DNA from: Haloarchaeobius sp. HME9146
GTDB lineage: Archaea; Halobacteriota; Halobacteria; Halobacteriales; Natrialbaceae
Assembly: GCF_025399835.1 (NCBI RefSeq)
Contig: NZ_JAODVR010000001.1
Location: 1,364,001 to 1,428,000 of the forward strand
DNA: 64,000 nt
Direction of reading: 5' to 3'
Made by a program: the position numbers and the translations under genes. Numbering within the stretch: the stretch's first letter is position 1; every line of letters begins with the position of its first letter. The notes beneath the pieces were generated by a model, which saw nothing but the letters and a program-made list of their open reading frames with translations, did not search any database and was not told where the DNA came from. Positions 5,458 through 17,500 of this stretch are shown piece by piece.

Positions 5458-5475
5458 TCACTCAGGGCCGAGTGA
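5458..5475. promoter_or_regulatory. TrmB-like palindrome upstream of ppsA
   Basis: TCACTC, six bases, GAGTGA form an inverted repeat (CACT-N7-GAGTG) directly upstream of a TATA-like CCATAGAC at about 5480. The layout matches the published haloarchaeal TrmB motif TACT-N7/8-GAGTA except for the outermost bases, and a stricter copy precedes pyk. A sugar-responsive operator for PEP synthase is inferred. Confidence 0.5.
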
Positions 5476-5534
5476 GAATCCATAGACGGCGTCCGGAATC
5501 TTCATGGTCGCGCCGGGATTGCCTCCGAATAGAG

Positions 5535-7853
5535 ATGGCAGTACTCTGGCTGGACGAGATACGGGCCAGCGATCTTGAAGCCGTCGGCGGTAAAGGCGCA
5601 TCCCTCGGCGAGTTGACCGCCGCAGGGCTCCCTGTACCACCCGGGTTCGTCGTGACCGCGGGCACGTACCGCAAATTCATCGAAGAAGCAGGTATCGACG
5701 AAGAGCTGTTCGAGGCCGTCGACGTCGACGTCGACGACTCGAAGGCCCTCGCCGCGGCCGAAGAGCGCGCGAGTGAACTCATCCTCGGCACGCCGTTCCC
5801 CGACGAGCTCCGCGAGGAGATCCTCGCGGCGTATCGCGAGGTCGACGACGGCGAAGCGTTCGTCGCCGTCCGTTCGTCCGCGACCGCCGAGGACCTCCCG
5901 GACGCCTCCTTCGCGGGACAGCAGGAGACGTTCCTCAACGTGACCGAGGACGAACTCCTCGAGCGCGTGCGGGAGTGCTGGGCGTCGCTGTTCACGCAGC
6001 GCGCCATCTACTACCGCCAGCAGCAGGGGTTCGACCACGCCGACGTGAACATCGCGGTCGTCGTCCAGCTGATGGTCGACGCCGAGAAGTCCGGCGTGAT
6101 GTTCACCAGCCACCCGTCGACGGGCGAACCGAAGATGATCATCGAGTCCGCGTGGGGCCTCGGCGAAGCCGTGGTCTCCGGGACCGTCTCGCCCGACAAC
6201 TACGTCCTCGACCGGGAGAACGACGAGGTGCTCGAGGTGACGGTCGCGGACAAGAAGATACAGATGATAAAGGACCCCGACACCGGCGAGACCGTCGAGG
6301 TCGACGTCGATGCAGACCGGCGCAACGCCCGGGTCCTTTCGGACGAGGAGCTCTCGAAGCTCCGCGAACTCGGCGAGACCGTCGAGGACCACTACGACAC
6401 GCCCCAGGACGTCGAGTGGGCCATCATCGACGGCGAGGTGTTCATGCTCCAATCCCGGCCCATCACGACCATCGCCGAGGGCGACATCGGTGAGGCCGAC
6501 GAGACGCGCGTCGACGCCGAGATGGCCGAGGAGGCCAACGCGACCACCGACGGCAGCGGCGCTGTCGGCGTCGAGAAACAGCAGATTCTGGTGCAGGGCC
6601 TCGGCTCCAGCCCGGGCGTCGCGTCCGGGAAGGCCCGCATCGTCAAGAAACTGGACCAGCTCGACAAGGTCGGCGAGGGCGACATCATCGTCACCGAGAT
6701 GACGACGCCGGACATGGTGCCCGCGATGAAGCGCGCCGCCGGTATCATCACCGACGAGGGTGGCATGACCAGCCACGCAGCCATCGTCTCGCGCGAACTC
6801 GGTGTCCCCGCCGTGGTCGGCGCGGGCAACGCCACCTCGACGCTCGACGACGGCCAGCTCATCACCATCGACGGCGACAAGGGCACCATCCGCGAAGGTC
6901 GCGTCGAGCCCGACGAGGAGGAGCGCGAACCCGTCGAGGAGGTCCGCCCGCAGGCCCCCGTCAAACCGATGACGGCGACGGAGGTCAAGGTCAACGTCTC
7001 CATCCCGGAGGCCGCCGAGCGCGCGGCCGCCACGGGAGCCGACGGCGTCGGCCTGCTCCGCATGGAGCACATGATCCTCTCGACGAACAAGACGCCCGAG
7101 AAGTACATCGAGGACCACGGCGAGAAGGCGTACGTCGACGAGATCGTCGAGGGCGTCCAGCGCGTCGCCGAGGAGTTCTTCCCGCGGCCGGTCCGCGTCC
7201 GCACGCTCGACGCGCCGACCGACGAGTTCCGCCAACTCGAGGGCGGCGACAGCGAGCCCAAGGAACACAACCCGATGCTCGGCTACCGCGGAATCCGCCG
7301 CAGCCTCGACAAGCCCGAGCTGTTCAAGCACGAGCTGGAGGCGTTCCGTCGCCTGTTCTCGATGGGCTACGACAACGTCGAGATCATGTTCCCGCTCGTC
7401 AACGACGCCGAGGACGTCATCCGGGCGCGCAACCTGATGCAGGAGGTCGGCATCGACCCCAACAAGCGCCGCTGGGGCGTGATGATAGAGACGCCCGCAT
7501 CGGCGCTCGGCGTCGAGCAGATGGCCGAGGCCGGCATCGACTTCGCCTCCTTCGGCACGAACGACCTCACCCAGTACACGCTCGCGGTCGACCGGAACAA
7601 CGGCAACGTCGCCGACCGGTTCGACGAACTCCACCCGGCCGTGCTCGAGCTCATCGGCCAGACCATCGAGACGTGTCGCGAACACGACGTGGCCACGTCC
7701 ATCTGCGGGCAGGCCGGCTCGAAGCCCCAGATGGTCCAGTTCCTCGTCAACGAGGGCGTCTCGTCCATCTCGGCGAACATCGACGCGGTCCGTGACGTCC
7801 AGCACGAGGTCAAGCGGGTCGAGCAGAAGCTCATCCTCGAATCGGTCCGCTGA
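5535..7853 (+). CDS. ppsA: Phosphoenolpyruvate synthase
   Basis: Makes PEP, AMP and phosphate from pyruvate, ATP and water for gluconeogenesis. The domains run in the usual order. The N-terminal ATP-grasp (PPDK-type) domain has the GGKGASLGEL signature. The swivelling phosphohistidine domain has GGMTSHAAIVSRELG, with the phosphorylated His about residue 414. The C-terminal TIM barrel ends with CGQAGSKPQM. At 772 residues it is normal for archaeal PpsA. The ATG at 5535 starts the conserved MAVLWLDEI sequence; longer frames are not conserved in character. Its palindrome at 5458-5475 and the similar one before pyk suggest shared sugar-dependent control of the PEP/pyruvate step. Confidence 0.97.
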   Translation: MAVLWLDEIRASDLEAVGGKGASLGELTAAGLPVPPGFVVTAGTYRKFIEEAGIDEELFEAVDVDVDDSKALAAAEERASELILGTPFPDELREEILAAYREVDDGEAFVAVRSSATAEDLPDASFAGQQETFLNVTEDELLERVRECWASLFTQRAIYYRQQQGFDHADVNIAVVVQLMVDAEKSGVMFTSHPSTGEPKMIIESAWGLGEAVVSGTVSPDNYVLDRENDEVLEVTVADKKIQMIKDPDTGETVEVDVDADRRNARVLSDEELSKLRELGETVEDHYDTPQDVEWAIIDGEVFMLQSRPITTIAEGDIGEADETRVDAEMAEEANATTDGSGAVGVEKQQILVQGLGSSPGVASGKARIVKKLDQLDKVGEGDIIVTEMTTPDMVPAMKRAAGIITDEGGMTSHAAIVSRELGVPAVVGAGNATSTLDDGQLITIDGDKGTIREGRVEPDEEEREPVEEVRPQAPVKPMTATEVKVNVSIPEAAERAAATGADGVGLLRMEHMILSTNKTPEKYIEDHGEKAYVDEIVEGVQRVAEEFFPRPVRVRTLDAPTDEFRQLEGGDSEPKEHNPMLGYRGIRRSLDKPELFKHELEAFRRLFSMGYDNVEIMFPLVNDAEDVIRARNLMQEVGIDPNKRRWGVMIETPASALGVEQMAEAGIDFASFGTNDLTQYTLAVDRNNGNVADRFDELHPAVLELIGQTIETCREHDVATSICGQAGSKPQMVQFLVNEGVSSISANIDAVRDVQHEVKRVEQKLILESVR

Positions 7854-15292: not shown

Positions 15293-15580
15293 TCAGATGT
15301 CGGTGACGAGCTCGGCGAAGTCGTCGGTGGGGATGACCTCCATCGTCTGCATGTCCAGCCCGTGGCGCTCCATCGCGAGCGCGACCTTGAACGCCTCGTC
15401 GCGCCCGTCGGCGTCGAAGATGACGATGAAGTCGTAATCCCCGAGGACCGCGTACGTGTCTTCGAGGGTCGCGTCGTACTCTTCGACTTCGGTGTGTATC
15501 TCACCCCAGAGCGAGGCGAGCTCCTGAACGTTGTTGATGTCGCGGTCGCGGACGCGGACGAGGGACGTGTACATTCCCAT
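15293..15580 (-). CDS. GYD domain protein
   Basis: Short (95 residues) single-domain protein with the ferredoxin-like GYD pattern, here VLGDYDFIVIFDA, near the middle. The family is widespread, of unknown function, and probably forms small homo-oligomers. The start at MGMYTSL is chosen because the preceding residues in the longer frame are not protein-like; MYTSL (15574) is an alternative. It is divergent from pyk and shares the upstream region containing the TrmB-like site. Confidence 0.8.
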   Translation of the reverse strand: MGMYTSLVRVRDRDINNVQELASLWGEIHTEVEEYDATLEDTYAVLGDYDFIVIFDADGRDEAFKVALAMERHGLDMQTMEVIPTDDFAELVTDI

Positions 15581-15688: not shown

Positions 15689-15704
15689 TACTCGGAACCG
15701 AGTA
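15689..15704. promoter_or_regulatory. TrmB-type operator upstream of pyk
   Basis: TACTCGGAACCGAGTA is a perfect 7-2-7 palindrome and an exact match to the haloarchaeal TrmB motif TACT-N7-GAGTA. It lies just upstream of the pyk TATA-like GGGGTTTTT (15712-15720). Assignment to TrmB rests on published motif knowledge; no trmB gene is in the window. Confidence 0.7.
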
Positions 15705-15745
15705 AAACACTGGGGTTTTTGCCGCCCTCCAGCGTAGACGGCCAC

Positions 15746-17500
15746 ATGAGAAACGCCAAGATCGTTTGTACGCTCGGACCGGCGACCGACACCGTCGGTC
15801 GCATCCGGGCATTGGCGGATGCCGGAATGTCGGTTGCCCGCCTCAACTCCAGTCACGGTGACCTGGAGACACGCGCCGAAATCGCCGATAAGGTCCGACA
15901 GGTGGACGAGGAGACGGAGAAACCGGTCGCGACGATGGTCGACCTGCAGGGGCCAGAGGTACGCACGGCCCCGCTGGACGAACCGATCGAACTCGAATCC
16001 GGGTCGACGGTCCGCTTCTACGAGGGGACCGAGGCGACCCCGGACGACATCGGGCTCTCGTACGGGATCTCCTCTGTCTCACCCGGCGACAGCATCCTGC
16101 TCGACGACGGCCGCATCGAGGCGACCGTCGAACGCGTCGATGGGTCGGACGTGTTCGCCACCATCGAGATGGGTGGCGAGTTGGGCGGGCGCAAGGGCGT
16201 CAACATGCCCGGCGTGGACCTCGACATCGACGTCGTGACCGAGAAGGACCGCGAGGACCTCAAACTCGCCGCCGAGAAGGAGGTCGACTTCGTGGCGGCC
16301 AGCTTCATCCGGAACGCCGACGACGTGCTCCACGTCAACGAGGTGCTCGAAGAGTTCGGGGCGGACATCCCCATCGTGTCGAAGATCGAGCGCGCGGGGG
16401 CCGTCGAGAACTTAGAGGAGATAATCGACGCCTCCTACGGCATCATGGTCGCCCGCGGTGACCTCGGCGTCGAGTGCCCGATGGAGGACGTGCCGATGAT
16501 CCAGAAGCGCATCATCCGGCGCTGTCGCGAGACCGGGACGCCGGTCATCACGGCGACGGAGATGCTGGACTCGATGATCCACGAGCGCCGGCCGACCCGC
16601 GCGGAAGCCTCGGACGTGGCGAACGCGGTCCTCGACGGGACCGACGCCGTCATGCTCTCGGCGGAGACCGCCATCGGCGACCACCCGGTCCGCGTCGTCG
16701 AGGCGATGGACCGCATCGTCCGGCAGGTCGAGAACAGCGAGGAGTACGCCGAGACGCGCGAACAGCGCGTCCCGGCCGCCAGCGACTCCCGGACCGACGC
16801 CCTCGCGCGGTCCGCGCGGTATCTGGCCCGCGACATCGGTGCGAGCGCGGTCGTCGCCGCGTCCGAGTCCGGGTACACGGCGCTCAAGACGGCGAAGTAC
16901 CGCCCCGGCGTGCCGGTCGTCGCGACGACCCCGACGGACCGAGTTCGACGCCAGCTCGCGCTCTCGTGGGGAGTCAACGCCCAGTACGCGCCGTTCGCCG
17001 AGGACGGCGTCGACGCCGTCATCCAGAACGCGGTGCAGGCCGCCCTGGACGCGGGCGTCGCCGAGAGCGGCGACACGGTCGTCGTCCTCTCCGGGATGAT
17101 GACCGACCTGGAAGGGGCCCAGACGACGAACATGCTGAAGGTCCACGTCGCCGCGGAGGCCCTCGCCATCGGTCGTGGCGTGGTCTCCGGGTACGTCACC
17201 GGCCCCATCAGGAACGTCGACGACGGCGACCTGACCGATGTCCCCGAAGGCGCCATCATCACCCTCGGGCCGGAGTTCGATGGCGAGTTCGAGGGCGACG
17301 TCTCGCGCGTCGGCGGTATCGTCGACGCCCGCCCGGGCATGACGGGCTACCCCGCGATGGTCGCCCGCGAGGTCGGTATCCCGATGATATCGGGTGCGGA
17401 CCTCTCCGACGTCGATGACGAGACCACCGTCACCGTCGACGCCGAGCGCGGCGTGGTCTACGACGGTGCCATCCACCGGCGACAGGACACCCGACGGTGA
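15746..17500 (+). CDS. pyk: Pyruvate kinase
   Basis: Converts PEP and ADP to pyruvate and ATP. The N-terminus MRNAKIVCTLGPA, the active-site region KIERAGAVENLEEI, ARGDLGVE and the signature ITATEMLDSMI are all present. After the usual C-terminal kinase domain there is an extra domain of about 110 residues (IGRGVVSGYVTG to the end) resembling a PEP-utilizing mobile domain, as in other haloarchaeal and some Bacillus kinases. The start at 15746 is supported by GGGGTTTTTG about 27 bases upstream. The palindrome at 15689-15704 suggests sugar-responsive regulation, matching ppsA 10 kb away. Confidence 0.97.
   Translation: MRNAKIVCTLGPATDTVGRIRALADAGMSVARLNSSHGDLETRAEIADKVRQVDEETEKPVATMVDLQGPEVRTAPLDEPIELESGSTVRFYEGTEATPDDIGLSYGISSVSPGDSILLDDGRIEATVERVDGSDVFATIEMGGELGGRKGVNMPGVDLDIDVVTEKDREDLKLAAEKEVDFVAASFIRNADDVLHVNEVLEEFGADIPIVSKIERAGAVENLEEIIDASYGIMVARGDLGVECPMEDVPMIQKRIIRRCRETGTPVITATEMLDSMIHERRPTRAEASDVANAVLDGTDAVMLSAETAIGDHPVRVVEAMDRIVRQVENSEEYAETREQRVPAASDSRTDALARSARYLARDIGASAVVAASESGYTALKTAKYRPGVPVVATTPTDRVRRQLALSWGVNAQYAPFAEDGVDAVIQNAVQAALDAGVAESGDTVVVLSGMMTDLEGAQTTNMLKVHVAAEALAIGRGVVSGYVTGPIRNVDDGDLTDVPEGAIITLGPEFDGEFEGDVSRVGGIVDARPGMTGYPAMVAREVGIPMISGADLSDVDDETTVTVDAERGVVYDGAIHRRQDTRR

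Follow-up and report, generated by a model that had tools for sequence, protein, structure and literature searches.

RESULTS

A probable TrmB-type operator in the pyk promoter

The window, that is, the whole 64-kb stretch of DNA analyzed here, is part of a 4.19-Mb genome (G000), which among named records is closest to Haloarchaeobius. The window carries two forward-strand genes that would form the arms of a PEP/pyruvate switch. One of them, ppsA (positions 5535 to 7853), encodes a phosphoenolpyruvate synthase of 772 amino acids (PF01326 and PF02896; NF005057 and TIGR01418 over cut-off). The other, pyk (15746 to 17500), encodes a 584-amino-acid pyruvate kinase with a C-terminal PEP-utilizing mobile domain (PF00224, PF02887, and PF00391; NF004978 and TIGR01064 over cut-off). 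A gene for a 95-amino-acid GYD-domain protein lies divergently on the reverse strand (15293 to 15580; PF08734); in our judgment, it is outside the regulon described below. Between this gene and pyk is the sequence TACTCGGAACCGAGTA (15689 to 15704, no strand assigned), which spans −57 to −42 relative to the pyk ATG, within the core promoter of this gene of central carbon metabolism. It is followed after 11 nt by a T-rich TATA-like box on the forward strand (15716 to 15720). TATA-like boxes and start codons were assigned by conservation throughout, and with the box so placed, the edge of the site would come close to, or touch, the BRE region. A conserved AARTCAC-like stretch is also seen between site and box, at 15705 to 15710 in the window and in relatives (alignment columns 16 to 21), and may be the BRE.

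The site has the exact N7 form of the published TrmB motif of Halobacterium salinarum, TACT-N(7-8)-GAGTA (PMC3794607). No other exact TACT-N7-GAGTA match occurs in the window, where a first-order Markov model predicts 0.027 matches per strand, or about 0.05 per 64 kb, by chance. The preliminary description had called it a perfect palindrome as well as an exact match to this motif; the match stands, and the symmetry was slightly overstated. Two perfect 7-nt arms, TACTCGG and CCGAGTA, flank a central AA, so that 14 of 16 positions are self-complementary; because the AA is asymmetric, the site is a perfect 7-bp inverted repeat and no strict palindrome. An apparent outer extension of the dyad (CAGTG...CACTG) was attributed to chance, as it is not kept in relatives. 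Dyad symmetry by itself means little, since dyads with 7-bp arms and a 2-nt spacer occur 18 times in the window. The rarity lies in the combination of an exact motif, a fixed place in the promoter, and conservation across genera.

Conservation and loss of the pyk site

The preliminary description had proposed aligning the pyk promoter across haloarchaea, and the alignment places the site at the same position in many of them. Of 79 named haloarchaeal pyk loci, 51 have the pattern W-ACTCG-N4-CGAGT-W at −59 to −55, compared to about 0.5 match that the background rate would give over 84 loci. This count is from the tally of 79 named genomes; an earlier summary count containing duplicate genomes was set aside. 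Some trends were apparent. First, the core is nearly invariant, with columns close to 2 bits and a mean pairwise identity of 96%, compared to 31% in the preceding 30 nt, so conservation of the site is not explained by shared ancestry of the flank. Second, the distance to the box is almost constant: 50 of 53 promoters have 10 or 11 nt between operator and TTTT. Third, the site is found in all or nearly all genomes of certain genera (5 of 5 Halobacterium, 6 of 6 Natrialba, 13 of 13 Natrinema-named, and 4 of 5 Haladaptatus genomes). A good example is H. salinarum, whose pyk carries AACTCAGTATCGAGTA at −57, the same place as in the window. Finally, a composite pattern joining the site to the T-rich box found matches in 124 of the 391 genomes in the class, with about 25 control hits in all; judged by position, the matches in the organism's own family are mostly at pyk.

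The site was absent from the Halostella-type (f7) pyk promoters inspected and from those inspected on the Haloarcula side (f3, Halovenus, and Haloglomus). Family f4 has two layouts: the site is either near −58 as here (genera g38, g46, and g87) or directly after the T-rich box (genus g35, as CTTTTTAACTCGGTCCCGAGTA). Two named Haloferacaceae-type MAG loci (L088 and L089) also have the site after the box. These two loci and four of genus g35 (L132, L135, L142, and L144) share an otherwise similar core, CATCGTCGG-CTTTTTA. From the sequences, the after-box layout appears to be a relocation of the operator. In three other f4 loci (L134, L140, and L147), where the region upstream of pyk has only a weak TrmB site or none, a shared TTTTTACCACGANNGTA lies before the box, and another regulator, such as GfcR, may recognize it. 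The simplest reading of this distribution is an ancestral pyk site, kept in many Natrialbaceae-type genera and lost later in others. Control of pyk would then be old and widespread in haloarchaea and lost or rearranged in some lineages.

The genome encodes TrmB and carries the motif at other sugar genes

The preliminary description had made the assignment depend on the presence of a trmB homolog in the genome, and G000 encodes one at C1:2712327-2713031, so that this condition does not refute it. The protein matches PF11495 (E value of 2.1e-67), passes the NCBIfam haloarchaeal equivalog NF047392 (TransRegTrmBHalo) with 614 bits, above its cut-off of 500, has the PRVYD recognition motif, and shares 64% identity with the only PF11495 match in H. 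salinarum. The trmB promoter itself carries an exact motif 49 nt before the start (G000:C1:2713395-2713410; L010), which is kept in Haloarchaeobius and occurs in altered forms in Natrialba, Natrinema, and Halostella. A TTTAG box follows this copy after about 5 nt, a proximity that suggests self-repression of trmB. In contrast, Haloarcula TrmB is reported to show no autoregulation in vivo.

The regulon was read from genome-wide pattern searches, in which the exact motif occurred at 17 distinct places (24 strand hits), compared to 5 strand hits for a reversed control pattern and about 1.8 expected per strand. One exact copy precedes a ROK-family sugar kinase gene (G000:C1:959328-959343; L003) with the same 11-nt spacing as at pyk and is conserved in several relatives (L216 to L230). 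Others are found at a gluconate/galactonate dehydratase-like gene that scores below every NCBIfam cut-off, at a gene for a universal stress protein that lies divergently to one for an MFS transporter, and in the interval separating an alpha-amylase gene from a divergent glucoamylase-like gene (G000:C2:37174-37189; L015), the latter with no Pfam family match at the threshold used. The genome shows a single GAPDH gene, of archaeal type II (locus L209, G000:C1:896738-897199), preceded by a close variant, TACTCGACTCCGAAGTA (TACT-N8-AAGTA), 18 nt before a possible box; no type I GAPDH was found in the genome by PF02800. No site was seen upstream of fbp (C1:1778316), which another gene closely precedes. 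Such a set of genes is in keeping with a sugar regulon and favors TrmB as the protein that reads the motif.

Two groups of matches were discarded. Exact copies within coding sequence (e.g., L002 and L014) were not counted as operators. The broad pattern ACTC-N6-GAGTW gave 179 strand hits genome-wide, too many to read as sites, and its excess was not used as evidence because the reversed control differs in codon context.

A related site at ppsA

The preliminary description had also pointed to a similar site at ppsA, and it is indeed there. A TrmB-type site, CACTCAGGGCCGAGTG, with two mismatches to TACT-N7-GAGTA, lies at 5459 to 5474 (no strand assigned), its center 68.5 nt from the ppsA ATG (5535). 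In the ppsA promoters of relatives, the corresponding position is occupied by ACTC/ATTC-N6-GAGT. The TATA-like position on the forward strand (5501 to 5506), located by alignment to relatives, reads TTCATG here and TTCTTTA in relatives. A TATA-like box follows the site at a distance of 26 to 34 nt in 22 of 26 ppsA promoters checked, among them that of H. salinarum (33 nt). Halostella has strong ppsA sites and lacks the pyk site. The earlier proposal that both PEP/pyruvate arms answer to the same regulator is therefore plausible, given a related and conserved ppsA site, though with opposite sign: the two arms probably form a switch in which pyk is repressed and ppsA is activated.

Proposed action of TrmB at pyk

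We conclude, with a probability of roughly 0.85, that 15689 to 15704 is a TrmB operator of the pyk promoter, through which pyk is repressed when sugar is low and derepressed by sugar, ppsA being activated by the same regulator. The strongest reason for assigning this function is published work on H. salinarum, where TrmB represses pykA, expression of which rises 12.7-fold on glucose, whereas that of ppsA falls 3.6-fold (PMC3794607). TrmB binding, ppsA activation, and release by glucose are likewise known there (PMC3794607). With trmB encoded and the corresponding position of the H. salinarum promoter occupied by a site, the earlier suggestion of a TrmB site before pyk is supported, and we infer that the behavior of H. 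salinarum TrmB carries over to this organism.

By this analogy, a TrmB dimer would read the two ACTCG half-sites of the pyk operator when glucose or its signal is low. Its edge would then lie some 11 nt from the TATA-like box and overlap the BRE or crowd it. Bound TrmB would block TFB/TBP, so that pyk is off and carbon is directed from pyruvate to PEP, and TrmB bound 26 to 34 nt before the ppsA TATA-like box would activate gluconeogenesis. Binding of sugar to its effector domain would make TrmB leave, and pyk would be derepressed. The spacings at pyk and ppsA differ in the same direction as the signs of regulation differ, from which we infer that distance to the TATA-like box sets the sign.

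One general rule speaks against this, as does the reported absence of the pyk/ppsA control point from Haloarcula hispanica (PMC10817205). In the TrmB family, sites upstream of the BRE/TATA region activate and those downstream repress (PMC4158304). Because the pyk site precedes the TATA-like box, the rule predicts activation and counts against repression; together with PMC10817205, it favors reading the sequence as a TrmB site that activates pyk as TrmB does ppsA. We consider activation unlikely. The same spacing is found in H. salinarum, where pykA is repressed, the pyk gap of 10 to 11 nt is consistently unlike the ppsA gap of 26 to 34 nt, and the site right after the TATA-like box in f4 genus g35 is in a repressor position. 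The case for repression is thus made from the H. salinarum data and the proximity to the BRE, the positional rule alone being insufficient. Motifs of repressed genes have been remarked to overlap the BRE (PMC10817205), and closeness to this element would account for repression at pyk.

Alternative readers and targets of the site

The palindrome could instead be the operator of a different sugar regulator, most likely GfcR, or be read by GfcR and TrmB together. GfcR is encoded in the genome (NF045507, 384 bits versus a cut-off of 300), and it activates the pyruvate kinase gene in Haloferax volcanii, according to Johnsen 2023 as cited in PMC11519228. We give this little credence, because the sequence is the published TrmB motif, and because the same motif occurs at the trmB promoter and at ppsA, a gluconeogenic gene that is no expected target of GfcR. 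GfcR may still act at this promoter as a second regulator.

Another question is which gene a TrmB operator at this place would serve. The preliminary description had raised the possibility that the divergent GYD gene shares the control, and the operator might act on that gene, alone or together with pyk, because it lies between the two and they are close neighbors in 53 of 85 loci (a set with some duplicate genomes), whether or not the operator is present. The divergent pair itself is kept across many haloarchaeal genera. However, operator and GYD gene do not occur together as a shared operator would have them: H. salinarum, with metG and no GYD gene upstream of pyk, has kept the operator, and Halostella has kept the GYD gene and is missing the operator. 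The operator is also about 116 nt from the GYD start, and its position is fixed relative to pyk, whereas its distance to the GYD gene varies. Control of the GYD gene is therefore improbable and the suggestion unsupported. That the site is a functionless chance palindrome, as the 18 equal-sized dyads of the window might invite one to think, is refuted for practical purposes by conservation, namely, a fixed position and a near-invariant core across many genera whose flanks have diverged.

DISCUSSION

A motif match at pyk thus becomes a comparatively supported operator, and a PEP/pyruvate switch proven in one species that does not use sugars would extend to many haloarchaea, sugar users among them. 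Control of pyk by TrmB was already known from one relative, H. salinarum, and what we describe is regulon biology of a familiar kind, usefully refined on the evolutionary side. The two fixed spacings amount to a testable rule for how one archaeal regulator might both repress and activate. A broader scenario, to which we would give even odds, is that the pyk switch is ancestral in haloarchaea and independent of sugar eating, with a spacing code in which about 11 nt represses (pyk and the ROK sugar kinase) and 26 to 34 nt activates (ppsA). One lineage would have moved its pyk operator to just after the TATA box and so kept repression by another route, and the Haloarcula side and Halostella-type genomes would have lost the pyk arm while retaining the ppsA arm, at least partly.

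The closest known system is TrmB of H. salinarum (VNG1451C) at pykA. The two share the motif, the gene, and the distances that separate the site from start codon and T-rich box, and the regulators are orthologues at 64% identity. They differ in that the motif here is found at several sugar-use genes (kinase, dehydratase-like, and amylase), whereas H. salinarum gains no energy from sugars (PMC10817205). The TrmB regulon of Haloarcula hispanica has the same class of regulator, a partly palindromic 19-bp motif, and binding near ppsA and gapII. There, binding near ppsA has no effect on expression, pyk is no target, and the pyk/ppsA control point is reported absent (PMC10817205), whereas it is predicted to be present here. 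The published picture sets this absence beside a sugar-using lifestyle; from the present comparison, the loss looks lineage specific. One idea is that a pair of GAPDH enzymes takes the place of pyk/ppsA control; the genome analyzed here has a single GAPDH. In Pyrococcus and Thermococcus, TrmBL1/Tgr is likewise a single TrmB-family regulator that represses glycolysis and activates gluconeogenesis without sugar, and its sign, as proposed for the haloarchaeal switch, depends on the position of the site. It differs in its motif, TATCAC-N5-GTGATA, and in having its repressor sites downstream of the TATA box (PMC4158304). Finally, the GfcR regulon of Haloferax volcanii also places pyk under sugar-responsive control, and GfcR is encoded here too, but it is an activator of the PyrE-like type.
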